Assembly (NCBI GenBank): GCA_003455235.1
Contig: DMRT01000027.1
Span: forward strand, 1-10,923
Direction of reading: 5' to 3'
Length of the DNA: 10,923 bases
Source of the DNA: Chitinophagaceae bacterium
Lineage (GTDB): Bacteria; Bacteroidota; Bacteroidia; Chitinophagales; Chitinophagaceae
Both the position numbers and the translations under genes were made by a program. Every line of letters starts with the position of its first letter. The stretch's first letter is position 1. Below, piece after piece: positions 2,299-10,866 of this stretch. The notes beneath the pieces are model-generated. The model made no database searches, had not been told where the DNA came from, and saw only the letters and a list, made by a program, of their open reading frames with translations.

Positions 2299-5200
2299 AT
2301 GAAAACGATCTGCCTATTTATCATAACAGTCTTTTTAATGGTCAGTTTGAGTTTTGGCCAGGTAACTGTTACGAACCCTGCCAATACTACCCCTAATCTT
2401 GCAGCTACCTATACTTCACTGGCCAATGCAATAACAGCCTTAAGCGGTATTACATCCATCAGTGGCCCGGTGATCATTACCCTGGATGCAGGCAATCCTC
2501 AAACAGCGCCTGCAGGGGGGTATGTGATACAGTTCACAGCAACAACAACAGCTGCCAATAATATTACCATTGCCGGAACTAATAATATTATTACTGCATT
2601 TGCACCTCAAACCACGGGTAATATAAATGATGCCATTTTCAAACTCATTGGTGCCGACTATATTACGATCCAGAATTTTACCATGCAGGAAAATGTTGCC
2701 AATACAGTTAATACGCCGGCTGCATCAAACAATATGACCGAGTGGGGGATCGCTTTACTCCGTGCAACCACAACAGATGGAGCACAGAATAACACCATTC
2801 AAAACAATACGATATCTCTTAACAGAGCTTACAGGAACAGTTTTGGCATTTATAGCAATGCAAGGCATACTCCGGCAGCTCCAACAACCGATGCAGATGC
2901 CACTGCTTTCAGTGGCTCAAATTCCGGGAATAAGGTTTATGGAAACAATATCAGCAACGTCATGATGGGCATCACCTTCATAGGCACAGCCACAGCAGCT
3001 TTCCAGGATTCAGGCAACGATATAGGCGGAAGCTCTGCCGCAACGGGCAATACCATCACCAACTGGGGTGGAAATGCCCAGCTCAGTTCATATGCATCCA
3101 ATTCAGGCCAGTCGTATTGCATTTTCATGAATCACCAGGTAGCAGACAATGTTTCCTATAATACATTAAACAGCGGCCTGGTGGGTACAGGAGTAAATAC
3201 CACCCAGTTTTACGGGATCAATAAACATTATACAGCCGCCTCTCCCACAGGAACATTCACTTCCACAATATCCTATAATACAATCACGATGGCAAGTGAT
3301 TTCTCGGTAAGTACCATGTTTTGCATCAGAACTAATGGGATGGCCCCGTTGTCTACCACCACCACCATCAACATTACCAATAATTACCTGCTTAATAGTA
3401 CGGTTGCCGGCACATTTAACGGTTTTTGGGGGATCTTTAATGACTCTGCGCCGGGCACATTGAACATCAGTAATAATGTTATCCGCGGGGTTACCGCTCT
3501 GACCGATGGTGGTTTTGGAGGAATCCTCACTAATGGAGCCGTTGCGAACACCATCAATATCACCAATAACAAGATCGGTGATGCTGTAGCCGGAGCTGTA
3601 ACATTCACAGTTCCAACTACCAGCACTGTTTACGCGATCTTTAGTTCTGGCGGCGCGGGTACTACTACTGTTAATGTGAATAATAATTCCATTGATGGAT
3701 TTTCTGTTGTTAACACGTGGCAGGTCAATTTTATTATGAACGGAGGAAACTTTGCAGTGGTTAATATAAATAATAACCAACTCGGCACGGCAACAGGTTC
3801 GCTGATCAGTTTCAGCGGAGTTCAGACATTTTCACTACGGGGGATAGCTAGTGTTAATGATCCAACCACATCTATTTCCATTCAGAATAATGATTTTACG
3901 GGGGTGGTACAAGCCGTTACAGGAACGGGAACCCATGAGTACATCTATTGTCAGGCCATTGTTCCATTAACGAACATCAGTAATAACACCTTTACCAACC
4001 TGAGCTTAAATACAAGTAACGAGGTAAAACTGATATACAAGCATGGTTCAATGCCTTCCGGGGCTGCTTCTATTGTAAGCAACAACCGTATTGCTGGCAG
4101 TTTCAGTAAAACGGCAGCCGGAAGTAATGTGATCATGTACTATTCGGTTCCCACATCTGCCGGCGGATCAACATTAACAATAAGCGGGAACAATTTTTCC
4201 AACGTTAACCTAACAGGCGCTACCAATTTTTACGGCTTTGAAGACTTTGAAGGATTTACTCCTGCCAGTTCTCCTAACAAAACTATTTCAGGTAATACGA
4301 TCAGTAATGTTACGATGGGGACCGGTATTTTTTATGGCTTGTGGATCGATAAGGGGCAGACTTTGGGAATTACTTCCAATACCATCAGCAATATATCGAA
4401 TGCGGGCACAATTAGTGCGATCTACCTTCTTACGAATTCAGGATCAAACGCCCTTGGCGTTTCTTCAAACACAATCAATACGCTGATCTCATCAGCCGGC
4501 GATGTCTACGGAATAAGAAGCATCAGCACCTCGGCTGCTGTTAATATTCATGATAACAGTATAACGGGGCTTTCATCCGGCGGAAGCAGTAATTCGGTGA
4601 ACGGAATGCTTTTCAATAATGGGATCACCGTTACAGCGTACAATAACTTTGTGGCTAAGCTGGAGGCCGGTAATGCTGACCTGGCTGACGCAGTACGTGG
4701 TATCAGTGTCAACTCCACCACTGCAAACAGCACGTATAACCTCTATCACAATTCCATTTATATCAATGCCGCTTCAGCAGGAACCAATTTTGGTACATCA
4801 GGTATCTATCACCTGACCAATGCCACAGCTACTACCGGGGCGCTTAATATGGTTGACAACATTATTGTGAATACATCCACAGCCAATGGAACAGGACTTA
4901 CAGTTGCGTATCGGCGCTCCAATGCAACCCTGGCCAATTTTGCTGCATCCGATTATAACCTGTTGTATGCAGGCACACCCTCCGCAACAAACCTGATATT
5001 CTATGATGGAACCAACAGTGATCAAACGTTAGCAGCTTACCAGGCAAGGGTTAGTACAAGGGATGCGAATTCAATAAGCCTGATGCCTGTTTTTGTATCG
5101 GCTACGGATCTGCATTTAACACCCGACAACTGTGCGCTTGATAATAAAGGAACCCCGGTTGGCGGCATCAGCAATGATATAGATGCTGATACACGAAGTG

Positions 5201-6363
5201 CCAGCACCCCTGATATTGGCGCAGATGAATTTGATGCTTATAATACGGGAGTTTTAGCAGGAATTGTAAACACTTCTGTTTGCTCAAACAAGACGGTGAT
5301 TAATACCGGTACCATATATACCGATGCCGGGTGCAACCTTATTGCCAGGGTTTTGCCTTCGGGTGCTGCCCCGGTAAGCGGGATGATAAATGCATGTGTT
5401 ACGAGAGATGCAGCTCAACTTTATTTTAATGCTGAACCTTATGTACAAAGGCATTACGATATTGAACCGGCCGTTGCTGCGGCCACAGCAACGGCAACCA
5501 TCACTTTATATTTCAATGATGCCGACTTTGCCTTATACAATACCAATAACAGTCCAGCATGGCCGGCATTGCCAACCTTAGCAGGAGGAGGAAATACCGA
5601 CCCGAATATTGCTAACCTGAAAGTTACGCAGTTTCATGGTACGCCTATCGGCGGTTTGCCAACCAGCACTCCGGGCAATTATACCGGTACTAGGGTTTTA
5701 TTGACTCCTGTGAGCGTTGTACTCACCGGAGCCATTTGGGCCGTAACTGTAAATGTTACTGGCTTCAGCGGATTTTACGTACATACCAACCTCTGGAATG
5801 GACCATTGCCTTTTACAGTTAACTATTTTAAGGGTATAAAACAGGGAAATAACCATTTACTTGACTGGAAAGTAACCTGCAACAGCACACCGGGGATAAT
5901 CATGACACTGGAGCGAAGTGCCGACTCCCGAAACTTCAGTGGATTGAATACCATTACAGCTGATGCCGTCCGCTGCAACCAGCCATTTAATTATGCTGAT
6001 ACCCGACCGCTAAAAGGAATGAACTATTACCGGCTTAGAATGGCGGATGCAGATGGTAAAACTTCTTACAGTGGTATAGTGGCGTTACTAAATTCTGCTA
6101 AAGGGGTTGATATTGTAAGCATTGCACCCAATCCTGTAACTGCCGGTAGTTTTAAGCTTAACGTTGCCAGTACACAATCATCCAATATGCAATTGCTGAT
6201 CTTTGATATACAGGGCAGGATGCTGAACAGGCAAACCGTTTCAGTAATTGCAGGCTACAACAGCGTACCGGTTAATGTGGATAACCTGGCTTCAGGCATT
6301 TACAGCATCCAGTGTAGTGTTGGAGAAGATAAGTCAAGGACGCTACGTTTTGTAAAGCAATAG
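2299..6363 (+). CDS. T9SS-exported right-handed parallel beta-helix protein, 1354 residues
   Basis: A giant secreted or surface-attached protein. Residues 1-21 are a signal peptide (MKTICLF...SFGQ). From about 25 to 960 the chain is rich in Asn, Thr, Ser and Gly. Thirteen clear rungs of the form N-I-x-N-N-x-I begin near residues 358, 389, 420, 459, 489, 527, 559, 592, 627, 662, 690, 720 and 749, the pattern of NosD/pectate-lyase-like parallel beta-helices. PDIGADEFD near 971 closes that part. About 995-1163 is a beta-rich segment containing YFNDADFALYN and LKVTQFHGTP, a type seen in other Bacteroidota surface proteins. About 1169-1265 looks like an Ig/fibronectin-like domain (LERSADSRNF, YYRLRMADADGKTSYS). 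About 1272-1354 is a T9SS type A sorting domain: SIAPNPV, the IFDIQGRML strand, LASGIYSI and a C-terminal basic FVKQ. I see no catalytic residues I would trust; adhesion or glycan binding is possible but unproven. Confidence 0.9.
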   Translation: MKTICLFIITVFLMVSLSFGQVTVTNPANTTPNLAATYTSLANAITALSGITSISGPVIITLDAGNPQTAPAGGYVIQFTATTTAANNITIAGTNNIITAFAPQTTGNINDAIFKLIGADYITIQNFTMQENVANTVNTPAASNNMTEWGIALLRATTTDGAQNNTIQNNTISLNRAYRNSFGIYSNARHTPAAPTTDADATAFSGSNSGNKVYGNNISNVMMGITFIGTATAAFQDSGNDIGGSSAATGNTITNWGGNAQLSSYASNSGQSYCIFMNHQVADNVSYNTLNSGLVGTGVNTTQFYGINKHYTAASPTGTFTSTISYNTITMASDFSVSTMFCIRTNGMAPLSTTTTINITNNYLLNSTVAGTFNGFWGIFNDSAPGTLNISNNVIRGVTALTDGGFGGILTNGAVANTINITNNKIGDAVAGAVTFTVPTTSTVYAIFSSGGAGTTTVNVNNNSIDGFSVVNTWQVNFIMNGGNFAVVNINNNQLGTATGSLISFSGVQTFSLRGIASVNDPTTSISIQNNDFTGVVQAVTGTGTHEYIYCQAIVPLTNISNNTFTNLSLNTSNEVKLIYKHGSMPSGAASIVSNNRIAGSFSKTAAGSNVIMYYSVPTSAGGSTLTISGNNFSNVNLTGATNFYGFEDFEGFTPASSPNKTISGNTISNVTMGTGIFYGLWIDKGQTLGITSNTISNISNAGTISAIYLLTNSGSNALGVSSNTINTLISSAGDVYGIRSISTSAAVNIHDNSITGLSSGGSSNSVNGMLFNNGITVTAYNNFVAKLEAGNADLADAVRGISVNSTTANSTYNLYHNSIYINAASAGTNFGTSGIYHLTNATATTGALNMVDNIIVNTSTANGTGLTVAYRRSNATLANFAASDYNLLYAGTPSATNLIFYDGTNSDQTLAAYQARVSTRDANSISLMPVFVSATDLHLTPDNCALDNKGTPVGGISNDIDADTRSASTPDIGADEFDAYNTGVLAGIVNTSVCSNKTVINTGTIYTDAGCNLIARVLPSGAAPVSGMINACVTRDAAQLYFNAEPYVQRHYDIEPAVAAATATATITLYFNDADFALYNTNNSPAWPALPTLAGGGNTDPNIANLKVTQFHGTPIGGLPTSTPGNYTGTRVLLTPVSVVLTGAIWAVTVNVTGFSGFYVHTNLWNGPLPFTVNYFKGIKQGNNHLLDWKVTCNSTPGIIMTLERSADSRNFSGLNTITADAVRCNQPFNYADTRPLKGMNYYRLRMADADGKTSYSGIVALLNSAKGVDIVSIAPNPVTAGSFKLNVASTQSSNMQLLIFDIQGRMLNRQTVSVIAGYNSVPVNVDNLASGIYSIQCSVGEDKSRTLRFVKQ

Positions 6364-6581: not shown

Positions 6582-7502
6582 CTAATTATTTGCTTTCAGT
6601 ATCCGCTGCAGCTGCCTCGGCGTTTTAAATCCACACTGCGCAGCAATATATTCCATCGTATAATCTGGATTGTTGATCATGGTGCTGGCGTATTCAATCC
6701 GCAAAAGCGTGAGGTATTCAAGAACGGTGGAGCCGGTCTTTTCTTTAAATACACGGCTCAGGTTGCGGGGGCTCATCCCCACCATGGAAGCCAGGGTCTC
6801 AATATCATTCTCTTTGGAAAGATTATCGATCAGGTAGTCCTGCACCTCATGTACCTGCGGGTTGATGTGATTCCGGTAATCGAGATAAATACTTTGTTGT
6901 TTGTGCCGGCCGCTTCTGCGGTGATATACCACCAGCCCCCTTGCCACTTTGTGGGTGAAGAGCGCCCCTTTCAGGTCTTCCAGGATGGCTAAAGACAGGT
7001 CGATGCCGGCGCTGATGCCGGCGCTTGTATAAATAGTATTGCTTTTGATATAAAGAATATCAGCCAGTACCCTTGCCTCCGGAAACTGTTTCTGCAAGGC
7101 CTCCACCCTTCTCCAGTGGGTTGTGCATTCTGTATTTCTCAGTAATCCTGCGTGGCCCAGGGCAAAGGCGCCGCTGCAGATTGAACATACGATGATCCCT
7201 TTTTGGGAACATTCCTTCAGCCAGTTGAAGAACTCCCTTTCTGCTTTAAATTCAAAACTGTTCACATAATCATTATCCATCCCGGGCATGATGACAAAAT
7301 CACCTTGTTTCAATTTGGCGGTTTTAAAATGGGCTATTTTCCCGAAGCCAAGCCCGGCGGTGCTGATGGGGTTCTCGCTGTATTGGTAGAACTCCATTTC
7401 TACTTCCATTCCATGAACCTTTGCCTCGGTGAATACCTGCGCCGGTCCGGACAGGTCCAGCAACTCAACAGTGGGGGGAATAATAAAAGCGATCTTTAGC
7501 AT
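6582..7502 (-). CDS. GlxA-type transcriptional regulator: DJ-1/PfpI domain plus AraC HTH
   Basis: A 306-residue regulator starting at MLKIAFIIPP. An in-frame TTG seven codons upstream (7521-7523) is a poorer start, because only about three bases would separate it from the -7 box. The N-terminal DJ-1/PfpI (class I amidotransferase-like) domain, about residues 1-185, has PGMDND (73-78), the nucleophile-elbow-like SICSGAFALG with Cys109, TTHW (127-130) and YTSAGISAGIDL (158-169). In this family the domain usually acts as a sensor. The C-terminal AraC/XylS domain, about 218-306, has two HTHs: IETLASMVGMSPRNLSRVFK (234-253) and EYIAAQCGFKTPRQLQRILK (284-303). It probably binds DNA and controls nearby or distant genes; the ligand is unknown. 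It lies 83 bases downstream of the small ferredoxin-like gene and has its own promoter motif. Such regulators often sit beside genes related to their sensor domain, which fits the DJ-1-like lipoprotein three genes upstream. Confidence 0.9.
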   Translation of the reverse strand: MLKIAFIIPPTVELLDLSGPAQVFTEAKVHGMEVEMEFYQYSENPISTAGLGFGKIAHFKTAKLKQGDFVIMPGMDNDYVNSFEFKAEREFFNWLKECSQKGIIVCSICSGAFALGHAGLLRNTECTTHWRRVEALQKQFPEARVLADILYIKSNTIYTSAGISAGIDLSLAILEDLKGALFTHKVARGLVVYHRRSGRHKQQSIYLDYRNHINPQVHEVQDYLIDNLSKENDIETLASMVGMSPRNLSRVFKEKTGSTVLEYLTLLRIEYASTMINNPDYTMEYIAAQCGFKTPRQLQRILKANN

Positions 7503-7525
7503 ACAAACTTTTTTAATAATCAATT

Positions 7526-7585: not shown

Positions 7586-7798
7586 TTAATTCAGGACCTC
7601 GCAGCTGAAACCCAGGCGGTGAAGGTCATTCACGATGACCCGGGAGCCGGCTTCGGTGATTCCGTCAACCCGTAGTATCTTATCACAATCGGCCAGGTCG
7701 AAGTTTATCCGGGCCTCTGAAAAACCCTTTTCCAGGATTTCCAGGATGCGCCTGGCCTGCGTTTTGGTTTGCACATTTGTTTTGAATACCTCTATCAT
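7586..7798 (-). CDS. Small hypothetical protein, ferredoxin-fold (HMA-like) pattern, 70 residues
   Basis: A 70-residue cytoplasmic protein without signal peptide or membrane segment. The alternation looks like a beta-alpha-beta-beta-alpha-beta ferredoxin fold of the heavy-metal-associated type: MIEVFKTNV strand, a helix over QARRILEILEKGF, strands INFDLAD and KILRVDG, a helix over GSRVIVNDLHRLG, and a final strand CEVL. The CxxC metal site of true HMA proteins is absent; the only cysteines are in ADCD and SCEV, so metal binding is not implied. Small proteins of this shape are frequent in Bacteroidota and are usually unannotated. Its start codon overlaps the stop of the upstream membrane-protein gene (ATGA, 7795-7798), so the two are very likely translationally coupled. 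Confidence 0.75.
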   Translation of the reverse strand: MIEVFKTNVQTKTQARRILEILEKGFSEARINFDLADCDKILRVDGITEAGSRVIVNDLHRLGFSCEVLN

Positions 7799-8241
7799 GG
7801 TAATGGTTTGTTGGTTGAGCGGTTGCTTTTTATGGATTCAGGTCTTGCCTCTTTTTGAGAAAACTGTTTTATGAATACCCATATATAAATGCCGATGACG
7901 AAATCAATGGTCATACAAAACCATTCATAATGCGGCGGGATCAGCCCGGGGTTCTGGAAAAACTGGTAGGTAATGTCCCAGATCCCGTGCAGGAAATACC
8001 CGGTGGCAAGGATATATGTGCTCTTTCTTATTCCATAGTAGGCAATGAAGACAAACAATATTGCCTGGGCCGAGTTGATGATCAGCGCCTGCATATCTGT
8101 CCACACGAAACCAACATACAGGAAGCCGATACCTGAAAGAATGAGCGCATAGAGAGGGCCTTTGTCCATTCGCTTCAGAATGGTGAAAAACAAAATGTTG
8201 AGCAAGCCCCCGGTGAATCCAATAATAATAGCTGAAAACAT
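7795..8241 (-). CDS. Small integral membrane protein, possibly DUF6010-like, 148 residues
   Basis: A 148-residue inner-membrane protein with about four or five transmembrane helices, roughly 3-22, 30-50, 52-72, 75-92 and 108-126, and a charged cytoplasmic-type tail (about 128-148, KQFSQKEARPESIKSNR). The segment GYFLHGIWDITYQF around residue 85, followed by IPPHYEW and a DFVIGIYI helix, resembles the DUF6010 family as I remember it. That assignment is tentative and the function is unknown. The conserved-looking His-Gly-x-Trp-Asp inside a membrane helix would be the first place to look for an active or ligand site. The gene starts 28 bases after the lipoprotein gene, and its stop overlaps the next start by four bases, so it sits inside an operon. 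Confidence 0.8.
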   Translation of the reverse strand: MFSAIIIGFTGGLLNILFFTILKRMDKGPLYALILSGIGFLYVGFVWTDMQALIINSAQAILFVFIAYYGIRKSTYILATGYFLHGIWDITYQFFQNPGLIPPHYEWFCMTIDFVIGIYIWVFIKQFSQKEARPESIKSNRSTNKPLP

Positions 8242-8269: not shown

Positions 8270-9451
8270 TCAGTTATAGTCCAATGATATTTTCACAAAA
8301 TTCCTGAAACGCGGACCATACTGTTTACCGATCCGTTCCAGGCAGGTGTTCACCAGGTATTCACTTCCCTCATGAGGATAGCGGATGATCCGGGTGTTTT
8401 TAAGATCCGCTTCTTCCGCTGGGGAGAATGGTTCTGTTCTTACCACGTGCAGCTCATCCAGGCCTTTGATCCTGTTATCGCCGGTGGAGATAAGGACCAG
8501 TCCATATTTTGTCTGAACAGTGGAGCCGTTCAAAACATATGTTTTAAAGGAAGCGGGGAAACTGCGTCCGTATAATTCAAGGATGGTGGCCATATCAAAT
8601 TCGTTGATGCCGTTCTCCAGCAGGGCGCCGATATCCCTGTTTTTCCGGAAAAGAACTTTTTTGAGTACGTTGAATTTATCGCTGCCGTTGAGTGCAATGC
8701 TCCGGTGAGCTGTTTTTATTTCTGCCGAAGGATAATGAACATCCTGTAATACTTTTTTCATTGTTTCCTTTCCAAACAGTTCTTCAATTACGGTAAGGCT
8801 TCCCTCCACCGCATTTGAAACGCCGGCTGTACTGAACAGGTTCCCGCTTTTTGTAACGGTTACATGCTGTACCCATACCGGTTTACTGAAATGAGAACTT
8901 ACGTAGGCAAAATCAGAAGCGTGGGTGGTGATGGGTTTGCCATCGTACAGCCCGGTGGCTGCGGCAGTGGCGGATCCGTCGCAGATGGAAAGCATTTTGG
9001 TTTCCGGCAGGAAATGGTTTTTTATCCAGTCGATCAGCACCGGATCCTGGTGCTCGTCCCGGATGGATAAGGCGGGTATCACGATGGCATCGGCCCGCAG
9101 CTGCATGGAATCGGCTTCCCGGAAGCTGAGCTGGGGCATTACAAAAAGATATCTTCGAATAAAAATGGGCACCCGCTCTTTTGTAATGATGTAAACATTT
9201 GCCTTTTCCGTGGCATTGAATAAATAATAGGGCGCCAGCATGTCGAACAGCACCGTTAGTTTGCTGTCGGCAATGATGAATACGTTTTTCTTAGCGGGAT
9301 CAGGCACCGGTAAGCTGGCTTTTACGGGATAGTCGCCCGACCATGCTTTGGGGGCATCATAAAAATTGCGGAGCGGCCTGCAGGCATTCATAACCAGGGC
9401 GCTTATGAAGATGACAACAGGAAGAATGAAATGTGTTTTTTTGATTTTCAT
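8270..9451 (-). CDS. DJ-1/PfpI-type (GlxA-like amidotransferase fold) predicted lipoprotein
   Basis: A 393-residue exported protein. A basic N-terminus and hydrophobic core (about 7-22) lead to NAC with Cys24, a plausible though loose lipoprotein signal, so it is probably anchored in a membrane facing the periplasm. Residues about 55-225 are a DJ-1/PfpI domain: KNVFIIADSKLTVLFDMLAP (55-74), ADAIVIPALS (120-129), LSICDGSATAAATGLYDG with the elbow Cys157, TTHASDF (175-181) and STAGVSNAVEGSLTVIEEL (207-225). Residues about 283-340 (NEFDMATILELYGRSFPA..., TYVLNGSTVQTKYGLVLIST) repeat the start of that fold without a cysteine elbow, suggesting a degenerate second copy. In DJ-1-like proteins this fold can be a sensor, a chaperone-like protein or a hydrolase; which applies here is unknown. 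It starts 24 bases after the small exported protein gene, in one operon. Confidence 0.82.
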   Translation of the reverse strand: MKIKKTHFILPVVIFISALVMNACRPLRNFYDAPKAWSGDYPVKASLPVPDPAKKNVFIIADSKLTVLFDMLAPYYLFNATEKANVYIITKERVPIFIRRYLFVMPQLSFREADSMQLRADAIVIPALSIRDEHQDPVLIDWIKNHFLPETKMLSICDGSATAAATGLYDGKPITTHASDFAYVSSHFSKPVWVQHVTVTKSGNLFSTAGVSNAVEGSLTVIEELFGKETMKKVLQDVHYPSAEIKTAHRSIALNGSDKFNVLKKVLFRKNRDIGALLENGINEFDMATILELYGRSFPASFKTYVLNGSTVQTKYGLVLISTGDNRIKGLDELHVVRTEPFSPAEEADLKNTRIIRYPHEGSEYLVNTCLERIGKQYGPRFRNFVKISLDYN

Positions 9452-9475: not shown

Positions 9476-9697
9476 TCAGATGGAGGCTTTCGATTTAAAA
9501 TCGAACAACCCCTTCGTGTTTTCTGCATCCTGGCTTTCAAATACCCGGGAGCCGGAGTGATCAGAATTTTCCCGGTTTACGGAATTTGTTTTATGTGCAC
9601 CGGGTTCAACCGTTCTGTAATCCAGCTCCAGGATAATGTATGCCGGGAGCATGATCAGCAAGCTGAAGACCTGGATGGTAAATACTGCTTTTTTCAT
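9476..9697 (-). CDS. Small membrane-anchored hypothetical protein, 73 residues
   Basis: A 73-residue protein starting at the ATG encoding MKKAVFTIQVF. An in-frame extension to 9784 exists but would run back through the -7 promoter box, and the MKK start gives a classic export signal. Residues about 5-23 form one hydrophobic segment (VFTIQVFSLLIMLPAYIIL), followed by an acidic and polar tail of about 48 residues with no cysteine and no recognisable domain. There is no obvious signal-peptidase site, so it is probably a single-pass membrane protein with a periplasmic tail. The leader before the ATG is A-rich (AAAAACAAGTAAAACG) without Shine-Dalgarno. It is the first gene of the probable operon with the DJ-1-like lipoprotein and may be a small partner of it. 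I do not recognise the family. Confidence 0.65.
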   Translation of the reverse strand: MKKAVFTIQVFSLLIMLPAYIILELDYRTVEPGAHKTNSVNRENSDHSGSRVFESQDAENTKGLFDFKSKASI

Positions 9698-9880: not shown

Positions 9881-10546
9881 TCAGTGAACCGGGGTTGTAA
9901 TGAGGTTGCCGGTACATTTTTCTTCAGTACCTGTGCAGCAACAGGTGGGTGTTCTTTTTTTCAGGTAGGGGCTGCTGCAGTTCCAGCAGTCAAACGGTTC
10001 TTCGGTTGAAAGGAGGATGCCCATTTCTGCGAGTAGCCTGCGGTAGTTTCTTGCGATGCTGCTTTCCTGCAGCAGGGTAATGCCATTGCGGCTGTAGAGT
10101 TTTCCTGTATACCGGAAACCGGCTTTCCGGATGCCCTTGAGGGAGGCTTTGTTCTCCGGGGCGTGGATGATCCAGAAGCGGTTTGCTTTCTTGCTTTCGG
10201 TTTGCAGGATGTATTGGAGTAAAGCGGGATAAATACCCAGGCCCCGGAATGTTTCCAGGGTCCGGAAATTCCACAGGTAGCGGTTGCCGGTGGGCAGGAT
10301 CATTTCATGTCCCAGTTCACCGATCCGGGCTTTTCCCCGGGCCACCCACCCAAAGGCAGCGGGTATATTGTTCATAAATGCCACGTAGGCATTGTTCTCA
10401 TTGGCCAGCCGCCGTTGTACTTCTTCGGCGCTAACGGTTCCTAGTGCTGAAAGCAGTGAAATGTCCGTGCTTTCTTCCATCGTTAATCCTTCCGGCAACG
10501 TAACAGGGGCGAGTTTTACAGTTCCGGCAATTGTATAAAGTGACAT
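9881..10546 (-). CDS. GNAT-family N-acetyltransferase with Cys-rich C-terminal tail
   Basis: A 221-residue protein starting at MSLYTIAGTV. A longer in-frame reading to 10642 would pass through a strong hairpin and overlap the Cys-rich peptide gene, so it is rejected. The acetyl-CoA fold lies at about 45-150: YVAFMNNIPAAFGWV (54-68), the pyrophosphate-loop motif ETFRGLGIYPALLQYIL (98-114, with RGLGIY at 101-106), and the NKASLKGIRKAGFRYTGKLY block (132-151). It would transfer acetyl from acetyl-CoA to an unknown amine. Beyond the fold, residues 183-221 carry six cysteines: C187 and C190 in CWNC, a CCC run at 202-204, and C211, a tail not normally seen in GNAT proteins and possibly a metal-binding knuckle. 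The nine-cysteine peptide gene lies 65 bases upstream on the same strand, and no TAnnTTTG box lies between them, so expression may come from partial read-through. Confidence 0.85.
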   Translation of the reverse strand: MSLYTIAGTVKLAPVTLPEGLTMEESTDISLLSALGTVSAEEVQRRLANENNAYVAFMNNIPAAFGWVARGKARIGELGHEMILPTGNRYLWNFRTLETFRGLGIYPALLQYILQTESKKANRFWIIHAPENKASLKGIRKAGFRYTGKLYSRNGITLLQESSIARNYRRLLAEMGILLSTEEPFDCWNCSSPYLKKRTPTCCCTGTEEKCTGNLITTPVH

Positions 10547-10570: not shown

Positions 10571-10605
10571 TTTAAAAGCCGGGAGAAGAATTTCTTCTCC
10601 CGGCT
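10571..10605 (-). terminator. Strong hairpin with T run between the Cys-rich peptide and the GNAT gene
   Basis: A near-perfect palindrome. GCCGGGAGAAGAA (10578-10590) and its exact reverse complement (10592-10604) are separated by one base, so the usable stem is 11-12 bp with a 3-5 base loop. A further A-T pair (10577/10605) extends it. Reading leftward, the stem is followed by TTTTAAA, so it can act as an intrinsic terminator seven bases after the peptide's stop codon. On the plus strand no T run follows. It probably makes the peptide transcript abundant and lets only a fraction of transcription continue into the acetyltransferase gene. Confidence 0.8.
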
Positions 10606-10611
10606 GTTTGA

Positions 10612-10719
10612 TTAAGCGCAGCTTTTGCAACCGCAGGTACATCCGGTACCGGGACAGTTATCGCCGCAAGTGCAGATGCCTGTTTCAGCGCATGTGCATT
10701 TTTTAATTGTTGCTTCCAT
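10612..10719 (-). CDS. 35-residue Cys-rich peptide, metallothionein-like
   Basis: A complete ORF from ATG (10717-10719) to TAA (10612-10614), too short for most gene callers. It begins MEATIKKCTC and ends GCTCGCKSCA. Nine of 35 residues are cysteine, at positions 8, 10, 16, 18, 22, 27, 29, 31 and 34, giving four CxC pairs (8/10, 16/18, 27/29, 29/31). There are no aromatic residues and no histidine; Gly, Thr and Lys fill most of the rest. This composition is that of a metallothionein, which binds Zn, Cu or Cd through clustered thiolates, although known bacterial SmtA/BmtA proteins are longer and contain His. An exact TAnnTTTG box lies upstream, the leader before the ATG is A-rich (ACAACAAAAAACAAAACA), and a strong terminator follows directly, so the unit looks like a real, well-expressed gene. 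A modified-peptide precursor is the main alternative. Confidence 0.75.
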   Translation of the reverse strand: MEATIKKCTCAETGICTCGDNCPGTGCTCGCKSCA

Positions 10720-10753: not shown

Positions 10754-10761
10754 CAAAATTA
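10754..10761 (-). promoter_or_regulatory. Bacteroidota -7 promoter box TAATTTTG
   Basis: TAATTTTG on the minus strand matches TAnnTTTG exactly. It ends 34 bases before the ATG of the 35-residue Cys-rich peptide, leaving a predicted leader of about 28 bases. A -33 TTTG is not evident. I saw no obvious metal-responsive operator palindrome of the ArsR/SmtB type around it, but the short CTGTTACAG palindrome at about 10781-10789 lies just upstream. Confidence 0.5.
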
Positions 10762-10866
10762 TTCCGCAACCGGGGGGCTGCTGTTACAGTTTCGAGGAAG
10801 AGATTTATATAATTCCCGGTGAGGATTAAATACAACCTGGTTTTTGCAACCGCTATATGCAAAAAA

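Follow-up and report, generated by a model that had tools for sequence, protein, structure and literature searches.

Is a 35-codon open reading frame crowded with cysteine codons a gene, and if it is, what does its product do and with which partners? Such a frame, running from ATG to stop, lies on the minus strand of the window (the whole stretch of DNA analysed here, 10,923 nucleotides from a Chitinophagaceae bacterium; table 1). A preliminary description, made from the letters alone, had read its product, MEATIKKCTCAETGICTCGDNCPGTGCTCGCKSCA, as a metallothionein by composition that standard cut-offs would miss. The translation does contain nine Cys among 35 residues, arranged in four CxC pairs, and neither His nor an aromatic residue; very small size, Cys-richness, CxC pairs and few or no aromatics, the hallmarks of metallothioneins, are all found in it. 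Beyond that description, the present analysis adds an operon partner, an operator and the copper-gene neighbours of relatives.

Table 1. Features of the window around and downstream of the peptide gene.
Feature	Position	Strand	Remarks
Cys-rich peptide gene, class A (35 aa, nine Cys)	10612..10719	-	conserved in 17 distinct loci, pN/pS 0.19
-7 promoter box TAATTTTG (TAnnTTTG)	10754..10761	-	ends 34 nt before ATG
Operator-like direct repeat	10780..10817	-	TATA 10809-10806 and TGTA 10788-10785, 21 nt apart; upstream alignment
Hairpin, attenuator or partial terminator	10577..10605	-	z -8.5; z<-3 in 16/17 loci
GNAT acetyltransferase, partner gene (221 aa, start MSLYT)	9881..10546	-	
Cys-rich GNAT tail, CWNC...CCC...C (six Cys)	9914..9988	-	invariant or nearly invariant alignment columns; low-confidence in model
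Small, membrane-like protein (by eye), MKKAVFTIQVF...	9476..9697	-	relatives beside class B peptides
DJ-1/PfpI-family protein	8270..9451	-	also in L023 locus, 49% identical
DUF6010 protein	7795..8241	-	relative beside class B peptide in L092, 57% identical
DJ-1/PfpI plus AraC regulator	6582..7523	-	

Conservation and distribution of the class A peptide

The family of the window peptide, here called class A, comprises 17 distinct DNA loci, the window included, after removal of four identical duplicates and addition of L067 and L068; two pairs among them (L016/L017 and L018/L030) are near-identical. Six Cys, CxC-x3-C-x4-CxCxC, are invariant in all 17, whereas the first CxC and the last Cys of the full spacing that had been proposed vary or are absent, and the proposal holds for its central part. 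Both TGT and TGC are used at every invariant Cys codon, heterozygosity at the first, second and third codon positions is 0.13, 0.19 and 0.51, and pN/pS pooled over the 16-codon core is 0.19, versus 2.73 and 0.57 when the alternative frames are read. The third-position variability, the low pN/pS, which the preliminary description had named as a check, and the codon mixture at invariant Cys mean that the peptide is under purifying selection at the protein level. Besides Cys, the residues G, D, P and T are conserved in the alignment, 13 of the 15 aligned members start with Met-Glu (ME), and the lengths range from 25 to 43 aa. Because the homologous loci share the six Cys and this low pN/pS, the frame is more than a chance ORF; it is a real, conserved gene overlooked by gene finders. 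With its nine Cys, four CxC pairs, lack of aromatics and six Cys invariant in the 15 aligned members, the product is indeed metallothionein-like by composition.

Among the genomes sampled, the family occurs patchily and in Chitinophagaceae only. Among 396 genomes of the order, convincing matches were found in four besides the window's own and weak ones in four more, and the gene directly after the peptide in all four convincing cases is the same GNAT gene as in the window. The draws of 394 genomes of the family gave profile matches in 12 at E<=0.01 with a profile that itself includes several of the members found; one of them (G699, E 0.004) is taken as chance, having stops inside and no GNAT match, and 11 genomes with 12 loci are left. 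In the phylum sample of 395 genomes, only the window's own genome and G176 carry the gene, in addition to four weak matches (L070-L073). The weak P0001 matches L002-L014 and L019-L022 are regarded as chance because they have no conserved Cys core. In plasmids, the peptide gave no match and GNAT a single distant Gemmatirosa match; viral contigs gave none. The peptide gene was found in none of the 58 other congeneric genomes, the weak matches there being judged chance, and this counts against the copper reading given below; the window's own contig (C149 of genome G000) may have been transferred recently or misbinned. In one genome (G587), the complete set of promoter, peptide, hairpin and GNAT occurs twice; one copy is L067, and L035 (Segetibacter koreensis) looks like the other, as judged from coordinates and score order. 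Chitinophaga dinghuensis is among the carriers as well.

No NCBIfam model matches any of the 15 class A members at E<=1, and the Pfam evidence is limited to a sub-threshold PF00131 (Metallothio) match of 14.8 bits (E 0.032; cut-off 23 bits) in one of the 15, the window's. The prokaryotic metallothionein family of Pfam, which covers SmtA and BmtA, gives no match at E<=1 and the window member is without His, so the suggestion of a Bacteroidota family distinct from SmtA/BmtA stands. NCBIfam matches at E<=1 likewise bring up no relation to MymT, which may however lack a model there. A search of the PDB with the class A profile returned nothing at E<=1. The best PDB sequence match of the window peptide is the copper metallothionein of Neurospora crassa (1m0j, E 4.1), with which it has the spacing CxC-x5-CxC-x3-C in common; since the match is not significant and the first-CxC spacing is not kept in class A, this likeness is convergence at most. 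That annotation misses such genes, as had been supposed, is illustrated by a 43-aa relative (L034), for which not one of about 5.8 billion predicted proteins shares three 5-residue words. Peptide fragments searched as text in the open-licence PMC literature gave no match, and no such peptide or regulon was noticed in the portions of that literature consulted.

The acetyltransferase partner and the intervening hairpin

The next gene after the class A peptide is an acetyltransferase of the GNAT superfamily in all 17 loci; in the window it starts 65 nt after the peptide stop, in the same direction. The linkage is free of search bias in both directions. On the one hand, a search with GNAT gave 398 homologues, the best 120 of which yielded 33 named loci (17 in Bacteroidota, 16 in Chloroflexota), and among these listed matches a short Cys-rich ORF lies directly upstream of GNAT in 14 of the 17 Bacteroidota loci, the exceptions being L023, L038 and L039, and in none of the 16 Chloroflexota loci. 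On the other hand, starting from the peptide in the 394 family genomes, all 12 loci (11 genomes, G699 left out) are directly before GNAT by coordinates. GNAT itself is present at 14 loci in 13 of these genomes, including all 11 with the peptide; the two without class A are G221 (L023) and G271 (L039, where GNAT is truncated).

Membership in the GNAT superfamily is seen from fold and acetyl-CoA motif. The model (mean pLDDT 85, with the tail from about residue 185 at low confidence) has an ordinary GNAT fold, for which Legionella VipF and MshD are the top structural rows and many others follow a few Z units below. More peculiar is the tail, in which six Cys are present in 16 of the 17 peptide-linked GNATs and four in the remaining one (L036). 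The Chloroflexota relatives (L040-L055) have Cys tails of their own and of a different kind, e.g. CWRC..VCTC...CSC; no copper gene was recognised beside them, where the neighbours are hydrolase-, LuxR- and dehydrogenase-like by eye, and this counts against a copper reading. A GNAT tree of 26 rows, with L039 and nine of the 16 Chloroflexota loci left out, does not place the window firmly and requires the peptide label to change three times, perhaps by a single gain and two losses.

The peptide ORF appears in part to be overwritten by GNAT starts annotated too early, because N-terminal extensions of some GNAT records are compatible with the six-Cys pattern in a second frame. Checked were the 12 records of at least 240 aa from the best 120 of the 398 homologues. 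Five extensions could hold the six-Cys pattern and a stop in that frame, which for each was matched by at most one of 500 shuffles, a sixth is compatible with five Cys (without shuffle control), three have CxCxC and a stop only, a weak criterion reached by 9 to 26 of 500 shuffles, and three have no peptide pattern. In the public GNAT records P0023, P0041, P0097, P0108 and P0122, the start is probably set too far upstream, so that they run across the peptide ORF in another frame.

The gap of 53-78 nt between peptide and GNAT is filled in the 17 loci by a hairpin of -15 to -24 kcal/mol whose sequence differs from locus to locus and whose z falls short of -3 in L036 alone (-2.7). The window hairpin begins 6 nt after the stop codon and has 13 bp and -24.3 kcal/mol, a stability that none of 200 shuffles reached. 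It had been called a strong terminator; the structure is real, but on the minus strand the stem is followed by no more than three T (the terminator scan had scored the plus strand) and GNAT starts in the same direction just beyond, so attenuator or partial terminator inside an operon is the better name. As the T-run ranges among the 17 loci from zero T to seven within eight bases, the hairpin sequences suggest at most partial termination, by which the peptide would be made in excess over GNAT.

A shared operator-like repeat, copper genes and candidate regulators

The exact TAnnTTTG box reported before is indeed present upstream of the window gene, and TAnnTTT[GA] occurs in all distinct class A loci but L026 (16 of 17) at an offset of 55-56 from the start of an operator-like element. 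In the alignment of class A upstream regions, two TnTA half-sites at a distance of 21 nt precede the -7 box; the 38-nt block, with its first column numbered 0, has T8, A11, T29, T31 and A32 invariant and T10 in 16 of 17. A spacing of 21 nt between half-sites is that expected of an AraC-type dimer. The window operator scores 40.0, being itself one of the 17 training sites, and the shuffled maximum is 13.3. Left out one at a time, the 17 promoters score 3.8-42.8; 15 reach at least 22, and the two low values (3.8 and 7.1) count against the motif.

When a matrix from the 17 promoters was combined with a required TAnnTTT[GA] 52-60 nt after the site start, 28 matches were found in 425,010 bases, versus 1.0 in five base-composition shuffles (0.2 at score 8). 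Twenty are class A promoters, duplicates included, and the box is at 55-56 in 27 of the 28; one match, in L019 (score 5.3), looks false. The seven non-training matches above score 6 stand before multicopper oxidase genes (L024, L028, L039), an HMA protein gene (L039) and short Cys-rich genes of a second family (L023, L038, L067). No Chloroflexota locus has a match.

This second family, class B, is under an operator like that of class A (L023:4924-5046(+), L038:1993-2106(-), L067:11069-11182(+) and L088-L103), with the same -7 spacing, similar size, CxC pairs and some window neighbours in common. It differs by its core, CxNPNCTCxxCxCxxxCxC, within the shared pattern MK...CxNPNCTCxxCxC...CxC, and by having no GNAT directly downstream. 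No Pfam or NCBIfam model matches it, and three near relatives exist as hypothetical proteins. Class B is present in 14 of 279 family genomes (17 rows, where L104 is the L092 locus, L090 starts too close to the end of its contig, L101 matches the profile weakly and is a variant Cys peptide, and L091/L102 and L096/L103 share a genome each). Operator and box at 55-56 are found in 13 of the 15 testable distinct loci. Among the loci not used for discovery (L088 being L023 and L091 being L067), the count is 11 of 13, or 10 of 12 without L101; L098 and L099 have no site, which counts against the association. L023 and L038, which have GNAT without the class A peptide, have class B nearby. A class B peptide was not found in the window's own MAG, which is 68% complete. 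Considering that relatives of the window's neighbours (table 1) stand at class B and L023 loci, the window is tied to the same regulon even though its own regulator is not visible. Elsewhere in the neighbourhood, a 70-aa protein (7586-7798) has no Pfam match, and a 1354-aa protein with a T9SS C-terminal sorting domain is encoded at 2299-6363(+). The small membrane-like protein at L092:1783-2163(+) (L104) has its own CxNPKCTCKKCSCGSDC-like segment, and its homologue in the window is without Cys.

Multicopper oxidase domains number 14 in 12 genomes, and the DNA upstream of each was scanned for the operator. It is present at six of the 14 loci: five sites are directly before the oxidase, two of them new (L106, L108) and three already known, and the sixth (L109, a weak 6.3) is before a small HMA-like protein. 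The eight loci without a site count against a general association. The site-bearing oxidase frames have 453-501 aa and those without a site at least 568 aa. Beyond the 425 kb scanned at first, L097 has an oppositely directed multicopper oxidase with its own operator (score 31.3). The operator positions before short oxidases are L024 +2542, L028 +4291, L039 +1981, L097 +2319, L106 +848 and L108 +853. These short enzymes have no obvious signal peptide by eye and could be cytosolic. A multicopper oxidase lies within 5 kb of GNAT in three of the 12 genomes.

Two kinds of AraC genes are candidates for the regulator. AraC regulators with an HMA-like (copper-chaperone-like) N-domain are present in 36 copies in the 12 genomes and, with a profile built from linked copies, within 5 kb of GNAT in nine of them. 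Their N-terminal domain is HMA-like with a CxxC, CxRC being invariant in eight aligned copies, and its profile matches the ATP7B whole chain (1.3e-8), the two-domain construct 2ew9 (5.5e-5) and CopZ (0.012) in the PDB; hhalign against the local HMA protein gave no match, which counts against the relation. Since only three of 25 unlinked HMA-AraC loci have the operator nearby, which also counts against this regulator, not all of the paralogues use it. The second candidate is another, divergent AraC gene, found next to the peptide in nine of the 14 named class A loci, which could be the activator instead of HMA-AraC. No such regulator is seen in the window genome, because the contig stops some 100 nt past the operator and the MAG is without HMA-AraC; no multicopper oxidase was found in this 68% complete MAG either, and both absences count against the copper reading.

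Functional role of the class A system

Composition, conservation and the shared operator argue for a copper-metallothionein role, and we consider it probable that the class A peptide is a cytosolic, metallothionein-like Cu(I) buffer in a copper regulon most likely activated by HMA-AraC, with co-expression of GNAT presumably limited by the hairpin. Transcription would start from the Bacteroidota -7 promoter with the direct-repeat operator just upstream, where an AraC-type activator, most likely HMA-AraC, would switch on the peptide along with class B, the HMA protein and the short multicopper oxidases. Some transcripts would end at the hairpin, giving much peptide and less GNAT; the peptide thiolates would buffer or sequester Cu(I) in the cytosol, and the Cys-tailed GNAT presumably acetylates a target that belongs to this stress response too.

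CxC peptides are ligands for many soft metals, and the peptide could be metallothionein-like and yet serve Zn/Cd, arsenic or general thiol stress and not copper. The genes at L028:985-3281(-), ArsR-, ArsC-like phosphatase-, ArsM- and aquaporin-like by eye, adjoin an oxidase-peptide-GNAT operon and count against copper. The operator nevertheless recurs before multicopper oxidases, the HMA domain of the nearby regulator resembles copper ATPases best, and bacterial Zn metallothioneins, according to excerpts of PMC7387436 and PMC10612145, have a zinc-finger fold with His, which the window peptide does not have; a metal other than copper is accordingly unlikely. Still less probable is that the product is irrelevant and the ORF a Cys-rich leader peptide, which responds to Cys-tRNA by translation-coupled attenuation and governs GNAT by way of the hairpin. 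The ORF is short and Cys-rich, its hairpin follows 6 nt after the stop and before an enzyme gene, and mycobacterial polycysteine uORFs are a precedent; a leader would nevertheless not explain well the fixed CxC spacing and the conserved G, D, P and T. Moreover, class B, under the same operator and without a GNAT directly downstream, is followed by a strong hairpin of its own (z<-3) in six of 15 cases, which points to the peptides as end products.

The neighbourhood of GNAT also bears on whether the peptide could be the precursor of a modified, secreted metal-binding peptide, as in methanobactin, acetylated by GNAT and taken up by a TonB-dependent receptor. An outer membrane TonB-type protein (cluster 6; assigned from Pfam of the L024 member) follows GNAT in seven of the 17 named Bacteroidota loci, with a gap of 2 nt in L037, and L035 has another receptor-like gene beside GNAT, outside cluster 6; this peptide-GNAT-receptor order and the ME start of most members fit such a precursor, which is very improbable all the same, as inspection by eye showed neither a signal nor a leader segment, neither an exporter nor a further modifying enzyme was recognised, and the receptor cluster is not in the window.

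For the preferred reading, a cytosolic copper metallothionein, the closest working analogue is the RicR regulon, to which MymT and a multicopper oxidase belong. According to excerpts of PMC10141476 and PMC7558416, MymT of Mycobacterium tuberculosis is a tiny, at first unannotated Cys-rich copper metallothionein, co-regulated by a copper regulator with a multicopper oxidase and other small ORFs. Class A resembles it, as far as these excerpts describe it, in being a tiny unannotated Cys-rich peptide that, to judge from the shared operator, may be co-regulated with a multicopper oxidase and other small ORFs; it differs in having AraC candidates in place of CsoR/RicR, a GNAT partner, another phylum and no NCBIfam match. 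SmtA, in the excerpts of PMC7387436 and PMC10612145, has a divergently transcribed regulator gene and an operator. In the same excerpts, SmtA, BmtA and PmtA are, like class A, small and Cys-rich; class A is shorter, its window member is without His, and its regulator candidates are AraC-type.

A much bolder version, to which we give little credence, is that the HMA-AraC proteins are the cytosolic copper sensors of Chitinophagaceae, acting through one 21-nt-spaced operator on two orphan metallothionein families, and that GNAT docks on the peptide and acetylates its ME(T) N-terminus or its lysines, thereby tuning stability or metal release. If true, this would be a metallothionein with its own modifying enzyme.

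The number of studied bacterial metallothioneins is small; in the part of PMC7387436 consulted, this 2020 paper counts two, SmtA and MymT, before its own Pseudomonas work. Class A and class B, for which no Pfam or NCBIfam model matches above cut-off, and whose small size lets them escape notice, besides the partial overwriting by early GNAT starts, would extend bacterial metallothioneins to Bacteroidota. Which one-component protein senses copper in this phylum appears to be unsettled: in excerpts, a marine genome survey (PMC10141476) lists for Bacteroidota only two-component and ECF homologues, and the MerR and CopY relatives of Bizionia (PMC11213822) are without copper sites. The operator and the HMA-AraC genes make the question of the Bacteroidota copper sensor directly testable, and the operator can in addition guide the search for further small metal proteins that are still hidden.
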